This document shows positions 1 through 9,902 of a stretch of DNA of 10,285 nt, piece after piece. The translations under genes were made by a program, and so were the position numbers. Under the pieces are notes generated by a model. It was not told the DNA's origin. It saw nothing but the letters and a program-made list of their open reading frames with translations, and ran no database searches. Numbering within the stretch: the stretch's first letter is position 1; each line of letters starts with the position of its first letter. The stretch lies in the NCBI GenBank assembly GCA_026193555.1, contig JAPHUU010000285.1, positions 1 to 10,285 of the forward strand, read 5' to 3'. Origin of the DNA: Rhodanobacter sp. Its GTDB lineage: Bacteria > Pseudomonadota > Gammaproteobacteria > Xanthomonadales > Rhodanobacteraceae.

Positions 1-102
1 ACGGCGACGCGGGCGGGCGGGCATGGGTCCGCTACGTCGATGCCGCGGGGTGGGCGCCGGTTGAGGGATACTGCTGCGGGAACGTGTTCCGGAGGTGCCC
101 CG

Positions 103-2514
103 ATGGCGTCCACATCCAGCCAACGGCGGCGTCTGGGCGTGGCGGTTGCGACCATTCTGTTTCTGCTCGGGCTCGCCCTGAGCGGGCTTGCACTTGCCGA
201 TCCGCCGGTGCAGCAGCTGCACGAAGTGAACGTGATCGCCGTCGCACCACTGGCCGGATTCGACGTCCCGGTGCTGCAGATCCCCCTGAACGTGCAAAGC
301 GCCCAGGCCGACGACGTCCGGCAGATTCACGGTCAGTCGCTGACCGAGCTGCTGCAGCGAAATTTTCAGGGTGTCAGCATGACCCAGTCGCAGGGCAACC
401 CGTGGCAGGGCAACCTGTATTTTCACGGCTTTACGCTGTCGCCCCTGCTGGGATCGCCGGCGGGCATTTCCGTCTACATGGACGGTGTGCGGGAGAACGA
501 GCCCTTCGCCGAAACCATGAACTGGGAGGCCATCCCTGACTTCGCCATTCGCAATGTCGAGCTTGTTCCCGGCTCCAACCCGCTGTACGGCATGAATACG
601 CTGGCTGGGGCGCTGCTGCTGACCAGCAAGAGCGGTTTCACCGATCCGGGTGGTTCGCTGAACACTTCGGGTGGGTCCTGGGGGCGCATCCAGGTTGATG
701 CGGATATCGGTGCCCACAGCCGCCGCTTCGGCATCTACATCGGGGCCGGCAGTGACTATGAAAGCGGCTGGCGCGACTACTCATCGAGCCGTGTGCAGCA
801 GGCCTTCGTTCGCGGCGACTGGCACCCGGACGAGGACACTCGCGTCACGTTGAGCTACACCGGTGCGCACGGCCGCTTGTCCGGAACCCAGTCCCTGCCG
901 GTCGAATGGGCGCGGACCCCGCAGGCGGGATACACTTGGCCGGATCATTTCAACGACAACATCAACGCGTTCAACCTGCAGGGCTCCCAACAGCTCGGCC
1001 TCGGCTGGGCAGTACAGACGAATGCCTACCTGCGCATCTCGCAGAGCCGCAGCTTCAACAGCAACACCAACAACTTCAGCAGCCATGTTCCGAACATCGA
1101 CGGTCCGCTTGGCTATGCCGCCAACAGTCCTTACAACCCGGACTCGATCGGCGAGTTCTACTACTCCGGATTGAGCCCGGCCTACGATCCCAACCATCCG
1201 ATGGCGACGATAAACAACGTGCCGGCCTCGAACGTGATTGGCAATGTGCACACACGCGGTTACGGCGGGTCTGTCCAGGCGGTGGACAGCGGCAGCCTTT
1301 TGGGGCGCGACAACCAGTTCACCATGGGCATCAGCCTGGACGCCGGCGAAAGCGCGTTCAGCCAGTATGCCCAGCCGGCCTATTTTCCCTACAGTGCGGC
1401 CCAGCGCGGGGATGCCGTGGGCTTGCTGCCGTTCGGCCCGAACCCGACCACTTATGCGGGTACTTCGAGCCGCAGTCAGGGGTTCTACTTCATGGACGTG
1501 CTGGCGCTCCCGCGGGGCGTGCACCTGAGCGTCGGCGGCCGCTACAACTACAGCCGGATCGCCGTCGATGACCGTTCCGGTGTTGCGCAGGCCATCAACG
1601 GCCGGCAGACGTTTCATCGCTTCGATCCCAGCCTTGGTGGAACCTGGGCCATCAGCCCGAAGCTCGACGCCTACCTGAACTACGACGAGGGCATGCGCAC
1701 GCCGACTCCGATCGAATTCGAGTGCGCCGATCCGACCGCACCGTGTTCGTTGCCGAACGACTTCATCGGCGATCCGCCACTGAAGCCGGTGGTTGTACGG
1801 ACGCTGGCCGGAGGCTTGCGTGGCGCTTTCGCCAGCGGCAACCTTCGCTGGAACTTTTCGCCGTACTACAGCCGTGCCAGCAACGATATCCTTACCATCT
1901 ACACCGGTGGCAGCGCCCAGGGCTATTTCGCCAACGTGCCCCGGACGGTGCGCAAGGGTGTGGACATCGGCCTCGGTGGTGAGAGCGGTCGGCTCGAATG
2001 GCAAGCCAACTACAGCTACGTCAGTGCCACTTACGGTGCCGCCTTCGAAGCGCAGAGCCCCGCGAACTCCAGCGCCGACGCGAACGGCGTGATCCAGATC
2101 CGAAGCGGCGACCGGATTCCCGGCGTGCCGCACGATCTGTTCAACCTCTCCGGTGAATACCAGCTCACCGATCGGTGGTCGCTGGGCGGCAACGTGCTGG
2201 CCTATTCGGGCCAGTATGCGGTAGGCGACGAGAACAACCAGGACCGTCATGGCATGCTCCCCGGCTACGCAGTCGTCGCGTTGGACCTGCACTACCGGGC
2301 GACCAGGCAGTTGGCCTTCTTTGCCCGTATCGACAATGCATTCGACCGTCGCTATTTCGGCAACGGCCAGCTGAGCGACAACGTCTTCGATACGCCGAAT
2401 CGGTTGCTCGACTTCACCGGCTCCGGCACGTCGACGCTGTTCGTCGCGCCGGGTGCGCCGCGCACGTATCTGGTGGGTCTGAGCTATGACTTTGGTGGGG
2501 CCGGGGACGATTAG
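103..2514 (+). CDS. TonB-dependent outer-membrane receptor, substrate unknown
   Basis: This encodes an 803-residue TonB-dependent receptor, which would import a ligand across the outer membrane using energy from TonB-ExbBD. The ATG at 103 is chosen over the in-frame ATG at 40 because GGAGG at 91-95 lies 7 nt upstream and a clean signal peptide follows: QRRR at 7-10, a hydrophobic core, then cleavage near ALA-DPP at 30-35. A TonB-box-like HEVNVIAVAP (40-49) precedes the plug domain (about 60-180), which shows QGNPWQGNLYFHGF (97-110), SVYMDGVRENEPF and VELVPGSNPLYGMNTLAGALLL. A 22-strand barrel would fill the remainder. Two cysteines (541 and 548) probably form a disulfide in an extracellular loop. 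The end is RTYLVGLSYDF plus six further residues (GGAGDD), so the usual terminal aromatic is not the last residue. The plug resembles a widespread receptor family of about 800 residues whose ligand I do not know. It converges with the next receptor, and no sigma54 promoter is visible in front of it. Confidence 0.93.
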   Translation: MASTSSQRRRLGVAVATILFLLGLALSGLALADPPVQQLHEVNVIAVAPLAGFDVPVLQIPLNVQSAQADDVRQIHGQSLTELLQRNFQGVSMTQSQGNPWQGNLYFHGFTLSPLLGSPAGISVYMDGVRENEPFAETMNWEAIPDFAIRNVELVPGSNPLYGMNTLAGALLLTSKSGFTDPGGSLNTSGGSWGRIQVDADIGAHSRRFGIYIGAGSDYESGWRDYSSSRVQQAFVRGDWHPDEDTRVTLSYTGAHGRLSGTQSLPVEWARTPQAGYTWPDHFNDNINAFNLQGSQQLGLGWAVQTNAYLRISQSRSFNSNTNNFSSHVPNIDGPLGYAANSPYNPDSIGEFYYSGLSPAYDPNHPMATINNVPASNVIGNVHTRGYGGSVQAVDSGSLLGRDNQFTMGISLDAGESAFSQYAQPAYFPYSAAQRGDAVGLLPFGPNPTTYAGTSSRSQGFYFMDVLALPRGVHLSVGGRYNYSRIAVDDRSGVAQAINGRQTFHRFDPSLGGTWAISPKLDAYLNYDEGMRTPTPIEFECADPTAPCSLPNDFIGDPPLKPVVVRTLAGGLRGAFASGNLRWNFSPYYSRASNDILTIYTGGSAQGYFANVPRTVRKGVDIGLGGESGRLEWQANYSYVSATYGAAFEAQSPANSSADANGVIQIRSGDRIPGVPHDLFNLSGEYQLTDRWSLGGNVLAYSGQYAVGDENNQDRHGMLPGYAVVALDLHYRATRQLAFFARIDNAFDRRYFGNGQLSDNVFDTPNRLLDFTGSGTSTLFVAPGAPRTYLVGLSYDFGGAGDD

Positions 2515-2726: not shown

Positions 2727-4862
2727 CTAGCCTTGGGGTTCCCAGCGCAAGTCGACGCCCAGCAGGTAGGTGCGTCCGGGGCCGGGTTCGAAGTAACCGT
2801 TGTGTCCCGCGTTGACGATCACTGCGCCCACATAGCGACGATCGAATGCGTTGTCGATGCGCCCGAACAGATGCGCGCGCCAGCGTCCGAGCTGCGTGAT
2901 GTAACCGGCACCGAGGCCGAATAGTGCGTAAGCCGGTGTGCTTACCGTGTTGAGGTCGTTGGTGGGCACCGCCGCCATGTAGCTGCCGTCCAGATCGAAC
3001 TGCCAGCCGCTGTCGGCGCCATAGTGCAGTGCCGTATAGGTATTGGAGCGAGGCACGCCCGGAATGCGCATGCCGCCAGGCACGGGTGTGTCCGGCGTGG
3101 TGCAGAAGGATGCACAGGTCAGGAACGGCGATTGGAATGTCGCGTCCAGCCACGTGTAGGCGATGCTTGCCTTCCAGTGTTCGGCGAAGCGCATGTTGAA
3201 CGACGCTTCGATACCCTGGCGACGAGCACGGTCGATGTTCTGATACGTCGTGCGGCCGCCGTGACTGGTGGCGACAGCCAGTTCGTTGCGGCTGTCGGCG
3301 CGGAACAACGCCAGGTTGGCGTGCGATTGCGCGGAGGGTTCAAGTTTCAGGCCCACTTCGCCGCTGCGTGTGCGCGCTGGCTTCAGGTAGAGCGCCAGGC
3401 CGCTGATACCGTCATTGCGGTAGCCCAGCTCGGAGAAGGTCGGTGCCTCGAAGCCCTTGCCCCAGTCGGCGTAAAGATGCGCCTTCGGCGACAACCGGAA
3501 CAGCACGCCGGCTACCGGAGTGGTTGCCGAGTAGTGCACCCGGCCGCTGTCGTTCGGGTTGGTGGCGGTGATGTAGGCATCGGTGGACTGGAAACTGACC
3601 CGACTGTGGCGCACGCCGGCCATCAGCGTCCAGTCGTCGCTCACCCGCCAAGTCGCCTGCGCGTATTGGTCGAAGTCGTAAATGCGATTTTGCTCGTTGC
3701 GCCTCAGCGCGCCGTGCACACCCAGCTGATTGCCGACGAAGTTGTTGTAGCCAAGCCGGTGCTGGCGCTGGTTGTCATAGCTCACGCCGAGCGCCAGATC
3801 GAACGGCTTGCCTGCCAGACTGCCAGCCCAGGTCCAGCGTGCGTCGGCACCACCGTAGGCGTTGTCGAGATCGATCACGCCGCCCGAGGATAGCGGGCTG
3901 GCTTGGGCGCCGGTCGGTACCGACAGGAACTGCTCGACCCGGCGCTTGCCGTAATACCCCATCAGCCTCAGCGTGCCATTCTCGGTCAACTGGTCTTCGT
4001 AGATCAGGCCGCCCTGCTGCTGCGAAACGCTCTTGCGCGTGTTGTAGGGGCCGGCCGATGTCGATGCCTGGCGCGGGTCCTGGAGATATTGTGCCGGAGT
4101 CAGGCCCTGGGGATCGTGCGCGTCGGGCAGGTTGAAGGTGTTCAGCACCAGCGTCAACGTGCGATGTTCGCCAAGCTTCCAGCCAAGCTTGGCATTCCCC
4201 GATTCACGCTTGGCACGGCTATGGTCGCGATAACCATCGGTCTGAAAGTGCGTGAAGTCGATGTTGTAGTCGAGTGCACCGGTGACGCCGCGTGCGTTGG
4301 CTTCGGCTCTCAGCAAGCCGTCGCTTCCGCCGGCGAGGCCGAGATGCAACTGCGGCGGCGCGGTGCCATCGGCGGTGAAAAGCTGTATCACGCCACCGGC
4401 GGCGTTGCCGTAGAGTGCCGAGAACGGGCCGCGCAATACCTCGATGCGATCTGCCGAATCGAGATTGAAGTGCGAGACCTGCCCCTGACCATCGGGCATC
4501 GTGGCGGGAATGCCGTCGGTGTACAGTCGTATGCCACGGATGCCGAAGGTCGAGCGCGCACCAAAGCCGCGAATCGATATCTGTTCATCCTGTGCGTAAT
4601 TCTGCCGGTCGCGAGCGATCACGCCGGGGATGCCGGCGAGCAGCTCCGAAGCATTGACGTCAAGGTTGCCGCTGGGTGGTGCCGCCACGACATTGATCGA
4701 GGCGGCAACATCGAAAGGCGACTGCGCCGTGCGCGTGGCGGTGACCACCACCGGTGACAGATCCTTGGGTTTCGTCGCTGACGAGGTCGCGACGGCGGTC
4801 AGTGGCAGCGTAGCCAGTGCGAAGGCGGCAAGCCGGCGTCGCGTCACAAGGGGTGAATGCAT
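2727..4862 (-). CDS. pqqU: TonB-dependent receptor of the PQQ receptor type (PqqU/YncD-like)
   Basis: This 711-residue outer-membrane receptor very probably takes up pyrroloquinoline quinone. The start is supported by AAGGA (4868-4872) 5 nt upstream and by a signal peptide (RRR at 8-10, hydrophobic to about residue 26). A TonB box, DLSPVVVTATR, lies at 34-44. The plug contains RDRQNYAQDEQISIRGFG (84-101), IRLYTDGIPATMPDGQGQ (111-128) and EVLRGPFSALYGNAAGGV (141-158). The barrel contains GGRTTY followed by RRQG, and the last part has FGRIDNAFDRRYVGAVIVN and FEPGPGRTYLLGV. These blocks match Escherichia coli YncD/PqqU as I remember it, almost word for word in the plug. The cysteine pair (583, 587) falls where YncD also has a cysteine pair. 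Four residues (EPQG) follow the last strand. A sigma54-type promoter lies about 80-95 bp upstream, and the activator gene precedes it on the same strand 222 bp away. The PqqU assignment rests on motif recall, not on an alignment; other small redox-cofactor ligands remain possible. Confidence 0.85.
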   Translation of the reverse strand: MHSPLVTRRRLAAFALATLPLTAVATSSATKPKDLSPVVVTATRTAQSPFDVAASINVVAAPPSGNLDVNASELLAGIPGVIARDRQNYAQDEQISIRGFGARSTFGIRGIRLYTDGIPATMPDGQGQVSHFNLDSADRIEVLRGPFSALYGNAAGGVIQLFTADGTAPPQLHLGLAGGSDGLLRAEANARGVTGALDYNIDFTHFQTDGYRDHSRAKRESGNAKLGWKLGEHRTLTLVLNTFNLPDAHDPQGLTPAQYLQDPRQASTSAGPYNTRKSVSQQQGGLIYEDQLTENGTLRLMGYYGKRRVEQFLSVPTGAQASPLSSGGVIDLDNAYGGADARWTWAGSLAGKPFDLALGVSYDNQRQHRLGYNNFVGNQLGVHGALRRNEQNRIYDFDQYAQATWRVSDDWTLMAGVRHSRVSFQSTDAYITATNPNDSGRVHYSATTPVAGVLFRLSPKAHLYADWGKGFEAPTFSELGYRNDGISGLALYLKPARTRSGEVGLKLEPSAQSHANLALFRADSRNELAVATSHGGRTTYQNIDRARRQGIEASFNMRFAEHWKASIAYTWLDATFQSPFLTCASFCTTPDTPVPGGMRIPGVPRSNTYTALHYGADSGWQFDLDGSYMAAVPTNDLNTVSTPAYALFGLGAGYITQLGRWRAHLFGRIDNAFDRRYVGAVIVNAGHNGYFEPGPGRTYLLGVDLRWEPQG

Positions 4863-4941: not shown

Positions 4942-4957
4942 GCAATGACTGTGCCAA
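4942..4957 (-). promoter_or_regulatory. sigma54 (-24/-12) promoter of the pqqU-like gene
   Basis: Read on the minus strand the site is TTGGCACAGTCATTGC, with the invariant GG and GC separated by exactly 10 bases (GG at 4955-4954, GC at 4943-4942). The -24 part TTGGCAC is a perfect consensus and the -12 part is TTGC. Transcription would start near 4930, giving a leader of about 68 nt before the ATG at 4862. It implies control by an AAA+ sigma54 activator, and one is encoded immediately upstream. Confidence 0.8.
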
Positions 4958-5067
4958 GAGTCAGCTCGCGTGTCGGCGGGGTTTCGCCCGGAAGCCGCAC
5001 TGCGGGTGTGCCGAAACCGGGTCACTACGAACGATGGGGGCGTCTCGCATGTGGCGCATTCGGCACC

Positions 5068-5084: not shown

Positions 5085-7031
5085 TTACGTGGGGAGCGCG
5101 ATGTCGTGCTTGCGAATCTTGCGATACAGGGTGTTGCGACTCATCCCGAGCGTGGTGGCGGTACGGCTGATATTCCAGTGCATGCGTTCGAGTTCACGCA
5201 CCAGTGCATCGCGTTCGGCAGTGCGCAGCGGCCCCGGGTCATCGGTGCTTGCGGCCGACAAGGTGGCCCCGAGCCGGTGGCTTGTGCCGGTAAGCTCCTT
5301 CCCCAAATGGGCCACGCCGATATGGCCATGGTCACCGCAGAGCGCTGCCGCGGTTCGCAGCACATTGCGCAGCTGGCGGATGTTTCCAGGCCATGGATGG
5401 GCAAGCAGCAATTCCATCGCCGCATCCTCGATCTCCGGCAACGGACCCTGGGGTGTTTCCTCGCGCAGCAACGTCTGAATCAGATCGAGCTTGTCAGTGC
5501 GCTCGCGCAGCGGCGGAAGCTCGAGCGTAATGCCGTTGAGGCGGTAGTACAGATCTTCGCGGAACGTGCCTTGTTGCATCATCTGCAACAGATCGTGGTG
5601 GGTCGCGCTGACTATGTGCAGATCCACGGGGATCGGGGTGTCGCCACCAAGCGGCATGATCTCGTGCTCTTCCAGCACGCGTAGCAGGCGCGTTTGCAGC
5701 GTCAGTGGCATGTCGCCGATCTCGTCAAGAAACAGCGTGCCCCCGCTGGATTGGCGAATCTTCCCGGTATGCCCCTCGCGGGCGGCATCGGTGAAGGCGC
5801 CGCGGGTATAGCCGAATAGTTCGCTCTCGATCAGCGGTTCGGGAATGGCGGCGCAGTTGACCGCGACAAATGAGCAGTTGGACCAGCTGCTGGATTGGTG
5901 CAGAGCCTTGGCGAAGACCTCCTTGCCGGTACCCGTGGCGCCCTGCAACAGAATAGGTACACGCCGACTGAACAGCTGCCGCCCGCAATTGAGATTGCGC
6001 TGCATGCGCGGATCGCTGTCGATATGCCGACGAGACGGCGCCGGTTCCGGTATCGAAAATGCAAAGGATGTCGGTGCCAGAGTGCGACGGCAAGCGATCG
6101 GTGCGCGTGCGTTGGCAAAGAAACGGCGGCCGTAGGCGATGTCACGCATCGGCCACAGGGTCGTCGGCTCGCTGGCGGCGCGTTGCTCCAGGGTGGCGAA
6201 GTCCAGCGGGAGGATCTCTTCCAGCGCACGACCCACCAGTTTTTCGCGCGCGCTGATGCCCAATTGCATGAGTGCGCTCTCATTGACAGCCAGGATGCGG
6301 CCGTCGCCGTCGACCGCCATCAGCGCTTCATGCAGGAGGCCGACGAATTCGGCACGGCTGTGGAAGCGCAGTATCCAGGCGTCCGGGAACTTGCTGAGGA
6401 AATGGCAGCGCGAGATGAGTTTGGCCGACATGCTGACCAGCGCCATGGTGTGGCTTTGCACCAGCTTGGTGTCGGACGAACGTGCCGCTGAGGCATCCAG
6501 CACCGCGAGCACGCCGCCATCGACATCAAGGATAGGTGCTCCGCAGCAGGACAGGCTGGCGTTGTACTGGCGGAAGTGCTCGCCGCAATGCACCGCTACC
6601 GGCAAGCGCTCGGCGATCGCCGTGCCCAGCCCGTTGGTGCCTTCGTTTTCTTCGCTCCAGATTGCGCCGATCCAAAGTCCGGCGCTCCTGAATTCGCGCT
6701 TGACATTAGGGTCGGTGATAGCACTCAGCACCACGGCATCGGCATCGCTGAGAATCACCGCATAGCCGGAGCCGGCAATCTGTTCGTAGAGGTTTTCCAT
6801 CTCGGCCCGTGCCACATTCAGTAGTTCGCCCAGCATTTGCTGACGGGCTCGCACGGACTCGGCATCGAGTACTACGGTGTTGCGCTTGGCGTCGGGTTCC
6901 ATGTTGTAGCGGTTGAAACAGCGATCCCATGACTTGGTGACGTGGGCGCCAACAGATGTCGTGCCCATGCGCCTGCGCAGCAGAATGGCGATCTGGGAGG
7001 ACGGCTGTCGGGTTGACAGGGCATTGTTCAT
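5085..7031 (-). CDS. AcoR-type sigma54-dependent transcriptional activator
   Basis: This 648-residue enhancer-binding protein of the AcoR class would sense a small molecule and drive sigma54 promoters. The ATG at 7031 is preferred over upstream in-frame ATGs because AcoR-like sequence begins there and the normal length is about 640-660 residues. GAGG lies 11 nt upstream, a rather long spacing. Residues 33-38 (KSWDRC) are the AcoR-style N-terminal motif. A GAF domain (about 80-200) contains EENEGTNGLGTAIAERLPV and CGAPILDVDGGVLAVLD. A PAS-like segment covers about 228-330. The AAA+ domain (about 340-570) has Walker A GATGTGKE (364-371), a sigma54-contact loop reading GAFTDA instead of GAFTGA (411-416), and Walker B TLFLDE (432-437). 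The C-terminal Fis-type helix-turn-helix includes NISRTATTLGMSRNTLYRKI. Relatives control acetoin or alcohol catabolism; the inducer here is unknown. Sigma54 promoters in front of three nearby genes suggest they are its targets. Confidence 0.93.
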   Translation of the reverse strand: MNNALSTRQPSSQIAILLRRRMGTTSVGAHVTKSWDRCFNRYNMEPDAKRNTVVLDAESVRARQQMLGELLNVARAEMENLYEQIAGSGYAVILSDADAVVLSAITDPNVKREFRSAGLWIGAIWSEENEGTNGLGTAIAERLPVAVHCGEHFRQYNASLSCCGAPILDVDGGVLAVLDASAARSSDTKLVQSHTMALVSMSAKLISRCHFLSKFPDAWILRFHSRAEFVGLLHEALMAVDGDGRILAVNESALMQLGISAREKLVGRALEEILPLDFATLEQRAASEPTTLWPMRDIAYGRRFFANARAPIACRRTLAPTSFAFSIPEPAPSRRHIDSDPRMQRNLNCGRQLFSRRVPILLQGATGTGKEVFAKALHQSSSWSNCSFVAVNCAAIPEPLIESELFGYTRGAFTDAAREGHTGKIRQSSGGTLFLDEIGDMPLTLQTRLLRVLEEHEIMPLGGDTPIPVDLHIVSATHHDLLQMMQQGTFREDLYYRLNGITLELPPLRERTDKLDLIQTLLREETPQGPLPEIEDAAMELLLAHPWPGNIRQLRNVLRTAAALCGDHGHIGVAHLGKELTGTSHRLGATLSAASTDDPGPLRTAERDALVRELERMHWNISRTATTLGMSRNTLYRKIRKHDIALPT

Positions 7032-7184
7032 GAGCAGATATCCCTCGTTGCCAACGCACCACTGCACAGTCGATCCACGTACCGATGCCGGGTGGATTGG
7101 CCGCCTGACATTGATGAAATGACCTAGAGCATCGCGCTCTGCCCCTGCGGCTGCAAACTGCACTGCAACATGCACGTCCGACGC

Positions 7185-7243
7185 GTGCGGCATTTGGCAC
7201 GGTCTGTCACGACCGCGCTGCGCCAAAAAAGCAACAGTGCGCC
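7185..7243 (+). promoter_or_regulatory. upstream activator element, copy 1 (porin promoter)
   Basis: This 59-bp element matches 9019-9077 at 44 of 59 positions without gaps, and most differences are transitions. The best conserved blocks are ATTTG, TCTGT (7203-7207), ACG, CGCG, TGCGCCA (7219-7225), GCAACA (7231-7236) and TGCG. Its 3' end lies 55 bp before the -24 GG of the porin promoter, exactly as in copy 2. The natural reading is a binding region for the neighbouring activator; no binding data exist here. Confidence 0.65.
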
Positions 7244-7295
7244 TCGCCGCGCCCCGTGCGGCACTCCAAACCACGGGCTTGGCAGCCGCGATCAT

Positions 7296-7311
7296 TTGGC
7301 GCGCGTCTTGC
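7296..7311 (+). promoter_or_regulatory. sigma54 (-24/-12) promoter of the porin gene
   Basis: TTGGCGCGCGTCTTGC has GG at 7298-7299 and GC at 7310-7311 with the required 10-base gap. It departs from TTGGCAC by one base. The expected start near 7323 gives a leader of about 134 nt before the porin ATG. The shared 59-bp element upstream supports it. Confidence 0.7.
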
Positions 7312-7456
7312 CTGTGCAAGCAGCAGCACTGTGCGGGGGGCGCTCTGGCCTCGCAAAAGTGTCGTTCGGCGCTCCCGCGCCGATTACGCGTTCGGACAAC
7401 CACGGCGGCGTGTCGATCAACGCGGGGCGCCGCAAATCATTCAGGGGGAGAAGGGC

Positions 7457-8662
7457 ATGACAAGAATCGCAAGAAGTAACGGCGCGCGACTGCGCCGCCG
7501 TGTTTCGCATCAGGGCCTGTCGGCCGGCATCGTGCTGCTTGGACTGGCCGTCTGCCCGCTGACAGCCGGTGCCACCGAGATCAGTGGCGACAACTGGAAG
7601 GTGGACATCAGTGGCTTCGTCAATGCCTTCTACACCACGGTGGGCTGTTCGGGTGCCGCCGTGGGTGGCCCTGCGCTGGCCTCGCAGGGATTGGGCTGCG
7701 GCGGCCAGCAGAACCGCACGACAATCGGCAATGGTCTGTTGCCGAATGCCCTGATCAGCAAGTTCAGTACCCAGCAGGAGGGCATTGATATCGCAGCGCA
7801 GGTGGGCATGATGGTGCACACGGCGACCGCTGACGGCCTCGCGGCGAACAATGGCATCGACGTGCGCCAGGCATTTTTCACGCTCGGCTCTGCGGATTTC
7901 GGCACGATCAAGCTCGGCCGTGACTATGGCATTTTCGGTTCCAACGCGATCCTGACCGACATGACGCTGTTGGGGGTCGGGGCGCCGGTCCAGGCCACCC
8001 AACGCGGACGCGTATCGTTGGGACACATCGGTGCGGGCTACACCTACCTCAATAACTACGGCCAGATCGTCTACACCACGCCGGGCAGCAGCAGCGGCCT
8101 GAGCTTCACCGGCGGTGTGTTCAGCCCGGTGAACAACACCGGGGTTTACGACTCCCGGTCCGCTCCGCAAATACAGGTGCAGCTGGCCTACGCACAGAAC
8201 GGCATCAAGGCATGGGTCGGTGCCAAGACGCAGCGGTTCTACGCGATGACCGGCTCCGGTGCGCTGCCGGCCAGCTTCACCATGACCGCCGGGGAGATCG
8301 GTGCGTCGTTCACGCTCGGATCGTTCAGCGTGCTCGGCAACATTCAGTCCGGCCGTGGCATCGGCATCCTCACCGATGGCGACCAGGGCAATGCGAAGGG
8401 AATCAACTACCTGCTGCAGGGCACGTTCGCGCTCACCGAGAAGCTCAAGCTCGGCTTGAGCGATGGCGTCAGTCGCAACCAGGATGACCTCGCCAGCAAT
8501 GCGGATTTCAAGTCCAACAGCAATGTCACCGCTGGTGCCTATTACGCATTGACCAAGAGCGTGACGCTCGATCTCGAGCTTAGCCAGACCCGCTCCAAGG
8601 ATTTTGCCGGGAACACCGCGCGGATGAATGGCGTGGCCCTCGGTGGCATCCTGTTTTTCTGA
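7457..8662 (+). CDS. outer-membrane porin (Gram-negative general porin family)
   Basis: A 401-residue beta-barrel porin that would let small solutes diffuse through the outer membrane. The ATG at 7457 follows a strong GGGGGAG (7444-7450) at 6 nt; the reading frame stays open upstream, but a start there would place the sigma54 promoter inside the gene. The signal peptide has a basic N-region (RLRRR at 11-15), a hydrophobic core (about 21-36) and a cleavage site near TAGA-TEIS. The mature protein starts with KVDISGFVNAFYTT, a first-strand pattern, and contains FFTLGSADFGTIKLGRDYGIFG, the stretch leading into the pore-constriction loop of trimeric porins. It ends with the expected aromatic (GGILFF). 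Two cysteines about 17 residues apart in the first loop (GCSGAA and GLGCGG) may be disulfide-linked. Its sigma54 promoter and shared upstream element tie its expression to the adjacent activator. The solute cannot be read from the sequence. Confidence 0.9.
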   Translation: MTRIARSNGARLRRRVSHQGLSAGIVLLGLAVCPLTAGATEISGDNWKVDISGFVNAFYTTVGCSGAAVGGPALASQGLGCGGQQNRTTIGNGLLPNALISKFSTQQEGIDIAAQVGMMVHTATADGLAANNGIDVRQAFFTLGSADFGTIKLGRDYGIFGSNAILTDMTLLGVGAPVQATQRGRVSLGHIGAGYTYLNNYGQIVYTTPGSSSGLSFTGGVFSPVNNTGVYDSRSAPQIQVQLAYAQNGIKAWVGAKTQRFYAMTGSGALPASFTMTAGEIGASFTLGSFSVLGNIQSGRGIGILTDGDQGNAKGINYLLQGTFALTEKLKLGLSDGVSRNQDDLASNADFKSNSNVTAGAYYALTKSVTLDLELSQTRSKDFAGNTARMNGVALGGILFF

Positions 8663-8737
8663 CCGACACGACTGACCGCAAGGGAGAATTTACGGAAATT
8701 CGCCAACGCAGACCTTGTCACGCGTGAAGATCCTGAC

Positions 8738-8765
8738 GGCGACCAGAGCCTCAGCTCTGGTCGCC
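8738..8765. repeat. perfect 12-bp inverted repeat with CTCA loop
   Basis: GGCGACCAGAGC (8738-8749) and its exact complement (8754-8765) flank the loop CTCA. It starts 76 nt after the porin stop. No T run follows, so it is not a standard intrinsic terminator. It could stabilise the 3' end of the porin mRNA or be a REP-like element. Confidence 0.7.
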
Positions 8766-8800
8766 AGACGAGATTCTGCGGGATACGAAGATGGCCGGTC

Positions 8801-8866
8801 GCCCGCCGGAGCAGCTGACTCTGAAGCCATTAAAAAATGGCCTCAGAGTCAGGTGTGATGGCGGGC
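8801..8866. repeat. nested inverted repeat, REP-like hairpin
   Basis: The inner stem pairs 8815-8831 with 8836-8852: 17 positions with one A/C mismatch (8825/8842), around an AAAA loop. An outer stem pairs GCCCGCC (8801-8807) with GGCGGGC (8860-8866), separated from the inner stem by 7 nt on each side. The inner arm carries CTGACTCTGA, a type of sequence often seen in dispersed hairpin repeats mobilised by REP-associated transposases. That identity is an inference. Confidence 0.7.
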
Positions 8867-9018
8867 AGGCCGAGCGACGCGATTGCCCGGCCGTGGCTCC
8901 CCTGGCGGGTTTCAAGAAGCAGCACCAAGGCACCGGTGCGCGCATGATCAACAGCGATACCGACATCAATCGTTGCTCCGCCGGTTGCCGCTTCACATCA
9001 CGCCTGCAGCTTTGTCGG

Positions 9019-9077
9019 GTGTGGTATTTGATACGCTCTGTAACGGTCGCGTTGCGCCATGGAGGCAACAATGCGTC
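9019..9077 (+). promoter_or_regulatory. upstream activator element, copy 2 (SRPBCC promoter)
   Basis: This is the second copy of the 59-bp element at 7185-7243, with 44 of 59 bases identical and no gaps. In this copy the core shows a dyad GTAACG-N4-CGTTGC (9040-9055), which is weaker in copy 1. The end of the element is 55 bp before the -24 GG at 9132, identical to the spacing at the porin gene. Confidence 0.65.
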
Positions 9078-9129
9078 ATGCCGCGTCGCCGCCCGCTCTG
9101 CCGCACAGCGTTCGCCGGCCGGGCAGCAA

Positions 9130-9145
9130 TTGGCATATGCATTGC
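9130..9145 (+). promoter_or_regulatory. sigma54 (-24/-12) promoter of the SRPBCC gene
   Basis: TTGGCATATGCATTGC has GG at 9132-9133 and GC at 9144-9145 with a 10-base gap, and TT follows as in the consensus TTGCTT. Transcription would start near 9157, about 34 nt before the ATG at 9191. It lies inside the longer open frame that begins at 9059 and so argues for the downstream start. Confidence 0.75.
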
Positions 9146-9190: not shown

Positions 9191-9613
9191 ATGGCGAGCA
9201 TCTGCGTCACCCAGCATCTCCCCCATTCCGTTGAAGCGGTCTGGGCTCTGATCGGTGATTTCGGCGGACTCCATCGCTGGCACCCGCAGGTGCAGCGGCT
9301 GGATTTGTCGTGGGAGGGGCGGATCCGCACCCTGCACTACGCCGATGGGGGGCGCGTGGTGGAACGTCTGGAGGCGCGCAACGACGCCATCTACCGGTAT
9401 GCGTATGTGCTGGTCGATGGCACGTTGCCGGTGCACGCCTGTCGCTCCAGGCTTGAGGTGCGGGCCGAGGGCGGGCAAAGTGAAGTGAGCTGGTCCTCCG
9501 ATTTCGAGCCTCTCGGTGACGGTGATGCCGAGGCCGCGGCCGAGGCCGCCCTGCGGATGAACTACACCGCTGGCCTGCGGGCCGTGGCGATGGCGCTTGG
9601 GGAGGGCGGCTAG
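9191..9613 (+). CDS. SRPBCC (START-like) small ligand-binding protein, MxaD-like
   Basis: This 140-residue protein has the SRPBCC/polyketide-cyclase fold pattern: a first strand (SICVTQHLPH), then SVEAVWALIGDFGGLHRWHPQV (the helix and WHP segment typical of the family), alternating strands through the middle (RTLHYADGGRVVERLEA, YRYAYVL, SRLEVRAEGG, SEVSWSSDFEPL) and a long C-terminal helix. This matches the usual length of a single domain. The start at 9191 has AAGG 5 nt upstream and sits behind the sigma54 promoter. There is no signal peptide from this start, so a cytoplasmic location is likely. Family members bind hydrophobic or small ligands. One branch, MxaD, accompanies PQQ-dependent methanol dehydrogenase, but MxaD is periplasmic, so that relation is only suggestive here. 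The shared promoter architecture places it in the same regulon as the porin. Confidence 0.85.
   Translation: MASICVTQHLPHSVEAVWALIGDFGGLHRWHPQVQRLDLSWEGRIRTLHYADGGRVVERLEARNDAIYRYAYVLVDGTLPVHACRSRLEVRAEGGQSEVSWSSDFEPLGDGDAEAAAEAALRMNYTAGLRAVAMALGEGG

Positions 9614-9826: not shown

Positions 9827-9902
<76 letters not shown>

Follow-up and report, generated by a model that had tools for sequence, protein, structure and literature searches.

Dyads of TGT and ACA half-sites with 10-12 bp spacers serve many sigma54 activators, for example NifA and FhlA, whereas the motif of AcoR, the activator of acetoin catabolism, is classed among the distinct ones (PMC6615313). Among the systems for the oxidation of one-carbon (C1) compounds and alcohols, MmoR of methanotrophs is a sigma54 activator of methane monooxygenase (PMC5874634). 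The Azospirillum brasilense gene exaA, encoding a pyrroloquinoline quinone (PQQ)-dependent alcohol dehydrogenase, is under sigma54 and a LuxR-type regulator (cited in PMC6115532), and PedS2/PedR2 controls the lanthanide-responsive PQQ dehydrogenases of Pseudomonas putida (PMC6115532). Our search of the open-licence literature brought up no report that xoxF is under sigma54 control, and the available portions of the papers retrieved mention sigma54 for other genes only (PMC12997753, PMC12403871, PMC6778391, PMC5623727, PMC3404531, PMC11237559). Here we describe a stretch of 10,285 nucleotides from Rhodanobacter sp. of the family Rhodanobacteraceae (assembly GCA_026193555.1, contig JAPHUU010000285.1), hereafter the window, in which two copies of a 59-bp element, E1 and E2, precede two sigma54 promoters beside the gene of a sigma54-dependent activator, which we call REG. 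From the sequence patterns described below we propose, with a probability of roughly 0.82, that E1 and E2 are enhancers of REG and that REG, acting through 18-bp dyads, controls a C1-oxidation regulon. To our knowledge this gammaproteobacterial lineage is not known for methylotrophy, and, as far as we know, the induction of lanthanide-dependent methanol oxidation has been little explored beyond the model methylotrophs; the finding supplies a regulator, an operator and targets.

An enhancer pair of a sigma54 activator is ordinary in kind, and it is the target set that is apparently new. The NifA and FhlA motifs (TGT-N10-12-ACA) are similar to the sites of this locus in having inverted TGT/ACA-like half-sites, a length of 18 bp and a position upstream of a -24/-12 promoter, but the half-sites here are TGnnnC/GnnnCA, a second dyad of 15 bp is present, and xoxF, frmA, pqqU, porin-like and MxaD-like genes make up the target set. 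The nearest precedent found is exaA, where sigma54 controls a PQQ-dependent alcohol dehydrogenase, as is predicted here; its regulator is LuxR-type, whereas REG is an AAA+ activator and the predicted target is xoxF. MmoR is comparable in being a sigma54 activator of the GAF type that serves a C1-oxidation operon, but the soluble methane monooxygenase under its control was not found in the clusters annotated here, and PedS2/PedR2 is a two-component system whereas REG is predicted to be a one-component sigma54 activator. With AcoR, REG shares the position of a sigma54 activator adjoining its operon. An earlier note on this stretch, made from the sequence alone, had called the activator AcoR-type, which proves to be a loose label only: none of the 25 NCBIfam matches listed (of 27) reached its cut-off, no acetoin genes were seen in our loci, and the neighbours are instead C1-oxidation genes.

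E1 (7185..7243, plus strand) lies upstream of a porin-like gene and E2 (9019..9077, plus strand) upstream of a gene for an SRPBCC protein. The two are identical at 44 of 59 positions without gaps, and no other two 59-mers on one strand of the window agree as well (runner-up 38); in 40 dinucleotide-shuffled versions the best pair reached 34-37 of 59. Each is followed by a sigma54 -24/-12 promoter of the form GG-N10-GC, close to TGGCAC-N5-TTGC: TGGCGCGCGTCTTGC for the porin-like gene (7297..7311, plus strand; GG at 7298, score 14.5) and TGGCATATGCATTGC for the SRPBCC gene (9131..9145, plus strand; GG at 9132, score 13.5). At both copies 54 bases separate the end of the element from the GG, which therefore begins 55 nt past the element, and the elements and the promoters are offset by the same 1834 bp; the identity, placement and equal offsets given in the earlier note were thus reproduced. 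When the organism's own assembly (2.96 Mb in 465 contigs, about 90% complete) was scanned with the core pattern at up to 3 mismatches, E1 and E2, both with sigma54 promoters, were the sole matches, and a reversed control pattern gave 0. A short repetitive or mobile element, or a chance likeness in GC-rich DNA, would have the existence of two copies and nothing more in its favour; with two copies in the genome, an empty control, shuffles of at most 37/59 and a tRNA as the sole Rfam match in the window, we consider such an origin ruled out by the shuffles and genome scans.

The element is conserved in related genera: 19 genomes of the family hold 22 sites, each ahead of a porin-like or an SRPBCC gene (the two in the window, loci L010-L019, L026 and L062-L068, and the SRPBCC copies L102 and L103). 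At each gene the upstream position that scored best was taken as the site, a procedure that favours the motif. Across these sites the element resolves into module A-B, a 15-bp dyad TGRCA-N5-TGTCA, then a linker of 6-9 bp, then module C-D, an 18-bp dyad TGnnnC-N6-GCRACA, and this division redraws the blocks TCTGT-N-ACG, TGCGCCA and GCAACA-N-TGCG that the earlier note had singled out. Positions 1, 2, 6, 13, 14, 16, 17 and 18 of C-D are invariant in 22/22 sites. A-B is recognisable in all 22, with the TGTCA block unaltered in 20 and one additional base in L026. The 18-bp dyad sits 40-64 bases ahead of the GG, and the promoters score 12.8-14.5 throughout. In E1, A-B occupies 7195..7210 (the 15-bp dyad plus one base) and C-D 7219..7236 (TGCGCC-N6-GCAACA, the proposed REG site); in E2, A-B occupies 9029..9044, with both arms off consensus (TGATA, TGTAA), and C-D 9053..9070 (TGCGCC-N6-GCAACA), all on the plus strand. 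An early model of four half-sites was dropped; its matches also fell inside genes. We propose that REG binds the 18-bp dyads at 7219-7236 and 9053-9070 and that looping of the DNA would bring it, on a preferred face of the helix, into contact with sigma54-RNA polymerase at the -24/-12 promoter, which begins 61 bases further on.

The distribution of the element follows that of REG. In a first set of 19 REG loci the element adjoins REG in all 11 from Rhodanobacteraceae (L010-L019, L026; the pattern did not pick up the elements of L019 and L026, which the alignment revealed). Another 20 REG loci of the family, among them L074, which stops at REG, include 7 with the element (L062-L068), at REG identities of 63-74%, and 12 with neither the element nor an SRPBCC gene (L069-L073, L075-L081). 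REG was found in 36 of 233 family genomes (E-value 1e-120); the element pattern, at up to 3 mismatches, matched 11 of the 233, all of them with REG, and 0 of the 197 REG-less genomes. A tandem site ahead of xoxF, described below, was found in 9 of the 233, again with REG in all 9 and a control of 0. XoxF itself (E-value 1e-200) is encoded in 19 of the 233 genomes, and 17 of these 19 carry REG, compared with 19 of the remaining 214; at least 4 of the latter 19 (G223, G042, G208, G211) have a second type of xoxF. Another DNA-binding protein that regulates the same genes might also be the owner of the element, given that we only infer the binding of REG and that the putative promoter block of REG lies close by. 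The confinement of the element and the xoxF tandem site to genomes with REG makes such an owner improbable, and sigma54 promoters need an activator of the class to which REG belongs. The suggestion of the earlier note that the element is the operator of the adjacent activator thus appears well founded as regards its tie to sigma54 promoters and to genomes carrying REG.

Two things escaped the earlier note: the connection to xoxF, and a further sigma54 promoter, the third, that likewise has a matching dyad. This near-perfect promoter, TGGCACAGTCATTGC / TTGGCACAGTCATTGCCT (4942..4956, minus strand; GG at 4955), belongs to a gene for a PqqU-like receptor, and 51 bases upstream of it lies the 18-bp dyad TGACCC-N6-GGCACA, TGACCCGGTTTCGGCACA (5007..5024, minus strand). 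In relatives the locus closes a cluster that runs xoxF - MoxJ-like binding protein - cytochrome c - frmA - gfa - TonB receptor (annotated on L015, where the MoxJ models match below their cut-offs), with REG divergent from the SRPBCC or the porin-like gene. The cluster dehydrogenase has the lanthanide XoxF 6oc5 as its top match among solved structures (E 5e-227), and it carries WDYDGVNE or WDYDGINE both in relatives and on the organism's own contig C429; the extra aspartate of this DYD metal-site motif is taken by us as the mark of a XoxF lanthanide methanol dehydrogenase. Contig C429 holds pieces of xoxF and frmA, both cut by the contig ends, with MoxJ-like and cytochrome genes between them. 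At the xoxF of this first cluster type, in all 11 loci that hold enough upstream DNA (A or G being allowed in the right arm), two 18-bp dyads 22-23 bp apart lie 103-111 and 81-88 bases ahead of a -24/-12 promoter, which is weaker in L080. A dyad with a sigma54 promoter also precedes frmA in 9 of 12 distinct loci and pqqU in 4 of 10, the window included. In a second locus type, xoxF - MoxJ/ankyrin protein - cytochrome c - REG, which includes L024 of the Steroidobacteraceae and L072 and L077-L079 of the same family as the window, 4 of 8 xoxF genes have a dyad 105-106 bases from a sigma54 promoter, and the porin-like genes have a TGT-N12-ACA site with a promoter in 7/7 and a second dyad in 5/7. 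Inside the xoxF operon, by comparison, none of 48 gene starts in 10 loci has a promoter scoring above 12.5, and at five of them a dyad stands next to a weak promoter. The best of these is frmA of L013, starting near 19326 (minus strand), with a possible promoter (12.5) and the dyad TGTACC-N6-GGCACA 96 bases upstream; no xoxF was found upstream of this frmA, and the promoter is possibly a genuine frmA promoter. At L010, 2484-2900, a remnant of pqqU retains a sigma54-type promoter, CTGGCACGGCGATTGCTG, as judged by eye.

Because the same dyad and promoter precede xoxF, frmA-gfa and the porin-like gene in relatives, REG is predicted to activate C1 oxidation and PQQ uptake, and because the locus ends a xoxF-frmA-gfa cluster there, it is most likely an activator of methanol and formaldehyde oxidation. 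Its targets in the window would be the porin-like gene, the MxaD-like SRPBCC gene and, through the separate dyad, the pqqU-like gene. REG, probably triggered by a sensed C1 compound, would then induce methanol oxidation of the lanthanide-dependent kind together with glutathione-linked formaldehyde oxidation and the uptake of PQQ. A single sigma54 regulon is thus predicted to unite the PQQ receptor with the dehydrogenase and with the removal of formaldehyde.

A background count on both strands of 12 loci (490,364 bases) gave 35 dyad-promoter pairs, by our reading 30 at these targets and 5 elsewhere. Several points weigh against the proposal. The dyad motif was partly derived from the loci in which it was then counted, so that the background count is not independent. 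The dyad-promoter pair is lacking at 6 of the 10 pqqU loci, at frmA of L078, L079 and L081 and at xoxF of L077-L079, and xoxF of L072 has a promoter with weaker sites. The xoxF of the genome under study is truncated by a contig end, which leaves its promoter region unreadable (L085). Beside REG, the element was not found in the 8 distant loci of the first 19 (L020-L025, L027, L028); 25 of the 36 REG genomes give no match at 3 mismatches, of which 8 hold a diverged element and the other 17 gave none; and two XoxF genomes, G006 and G138, have no REG match. Finally, A-B is not an 18-bp dyad (no register fitted when this was tried by hand), and owing to this difference the binding of one protein to both modules is not obvious.

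The last point bears on a rival to the part of our proposal that concerns A-B, namely that each module has a protein of its own: REG would occupy the 18-bp dyad and another regulator, such as a metal or redox sensor, the A-B dyad, so that the two promoters integrate two signals. In line with such an arrangement, the dyads differ in length (15 and 18 bp), the linker between them varies from 6 to 9 bp, a loose A-B pattern has no match upstream of the dyad-bearing xoxF (11), pqqU (4) and frmA (9) genes, and A-B is kept in SRPBCC copies lying away from REG. The half-sites of both modules nevertheless resemble TGKYRC, and no candidate second regulator turned up, no systematic search for one having been made; we therefore regard the idea as tentative. 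Equally speculative is its broader form, in which a one-component sigma54 activator acts as the master switch of lanthanide-dependent methanol oxidation, formaldehyde oxidation and PQQ uptake, and the two-module enhancer at the porin-like and MxaD-like promoters takes a second input, for example lanthanide or redox state.

REG (5085..7031, minus strand) combines an N-terminal region with PAS matches under the cut-off, a Sigma54_activat AAA+ domain (PF00158, E 2e-62) and a Fis-type helix-turn-helix (HTH; PF02954, E 9e-12). In place of GAFTGA, the sigma54-contact loop of REG has GAFTDA in the window and its nearer relatives and GAFPGA in L078; L020-L025, L027 and L028 have GAFTGA. The HTH is closely similar between the two locus types, which fits a common dyad. 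The sigma factor gene rpoN (TIGR02395) is present, with a match above the cut-off on contig C132 (positions 74-434) and a short piece (1-44) below it on C172. Beside REG lies a conserved block, GCAAACTGCACTGCAACAT (7128..7171, minus strand), with an AGCAT box; blocks of this GCAAAC type occur in 25 of 39 distinct loci, 12 of which also show the AGCAT box at an unchanged distance, and L065 has a tandem double copy. A sigma54 promoter for REG was dismissed, since the conserved block has no GG; the block may be a sigma70-type promoter of REG itself (TTGCAG-N17-GATGCT on the minus strand) or an autoregulatory site.

A porin-like gene is divergent from REG in four related genomes only (the window, L010, where it was identified by its start alone, L012 and L013), and in the other three the SRPBCC gene is found away from REG, preceded by an element and a promoter of its own: on another contig in G169 (0 mismatches), about 11 kb off in G167 (3 mismatches) and, in diverged form, in G187, a copy recognised by eye and outside the 22 sites. 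The element is thus retained at SRPBCC in 4/4 genomes with the divergent porin-like gene, and A-B is also retained in the copies away from REG. These SRPBCC copies are not mutually closest, E2 matching the G167 copy at 25/42 positions and L011 at 33/42. Alternatively, E1 and E2 might be alike only because insertion of the porin-like gene duplicated the promoter region, the element itself being free of selection. In favour of this, both copies have the spacing seen in their nearest relatives, some similarity remains in the spacer (24 of the 54 bases to the GG; E2 and L011 33/60), and on contig C383 a paralog of the porin-like gene, 84% identical, has upstream similarity in the last 67 bases only. 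Unselected duplication is nonetheless very improbable, as the element is better kept than the spacer (E1 and E2 31/42 versus 28/60; E1 and L011 40/42 versus 32/60) and persists beside REG orthologs of as little as 63% identity, other genera included. An old duplication maintained by selection fits best, because one spacing is common to E1, E2 and the nearest relatives and some spacer similarity is left. The simplest history has a single element at SRPBCC, behind which the porin-like gene was inserted, the duplicated element-promoter unit being retained at SRPBCC. The selection on the element put forward in the earlier note is supported, and the few spacing changes, near whole helical turns, favour its phasing; the note's contrast with a recent duplication is not supported as worded.

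The spacings suggest that enhancer and promoter are kept in helical phase. The distance from A to the GG is 82-83 in four genomes of genus g7 (two named Dyella), 92-93 in L014, L015 and L019, and 102-106 at the remaining 15 sites. Relative to the main class, the three deviations measure 21, 11.5 and 10.5 bp, each within 1 bp of whole 10.5-bp turns, with a chance of about 0.004 (uniform over 3-27 bp), and the same test on the C-D gaps gave 0.015; these are few events selected after inspection. Over 11 target classes R is 0.59 (p 0.019) at 10.5 bp, 0.71 (p 0.002) at 11 bp and 0.31 (p 0.37) at 10.0 bp, a period-dependent signal that is descriptive because the classes were defined post hoc and sites were omitted (the distal xoxF, distal porin and the distant L021, L022, L027 and L028 porin sites). 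Natural spacings that differ by approximately whole helical turns offer a test bed for phasing.

Among the remaining genes of the window, TBDT1 (40..2514, plus strand) is a TonB-dependent receptor that in relatives stands last in the xoxF cluster. The PqqU-like TonB-dependent receptor (2727..4862, minus strand) scores 700 bits over nearly its full length against NF041535, compared with an equivalog cut-off of 1200, and is therefore termed PqqU-like only. The porin-like gene (7457..8662, plus strand) owes its label to reading of the sequence, and it has no Pfam or NCBIfam match, nor do its C383 paralog and its L025 relative. The SRPBCC gene (9191..9613, plus strand) matches PF10604, and among 103 listed relatives 8 bear the Joint Genome Institute name 'mxaD protein', the rest being named otherwise or unnamed. 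The tRNA gene that is the only Rfam match lies at 9830-9902 (minus strand) and is followed by ribonuclease D. In L025 (7461-9101) the MoxJ-like protein of the xoxF cluster bears ankyrin repeats. On contig C383 (L086, 58-6895) a second PQQ dehydrogenase stands beside the porin-like paralog and a 36% identical REG paralog, and a perfect palindrome, TGTCGC-N5-GCGACA, lies upstream of the paralog.

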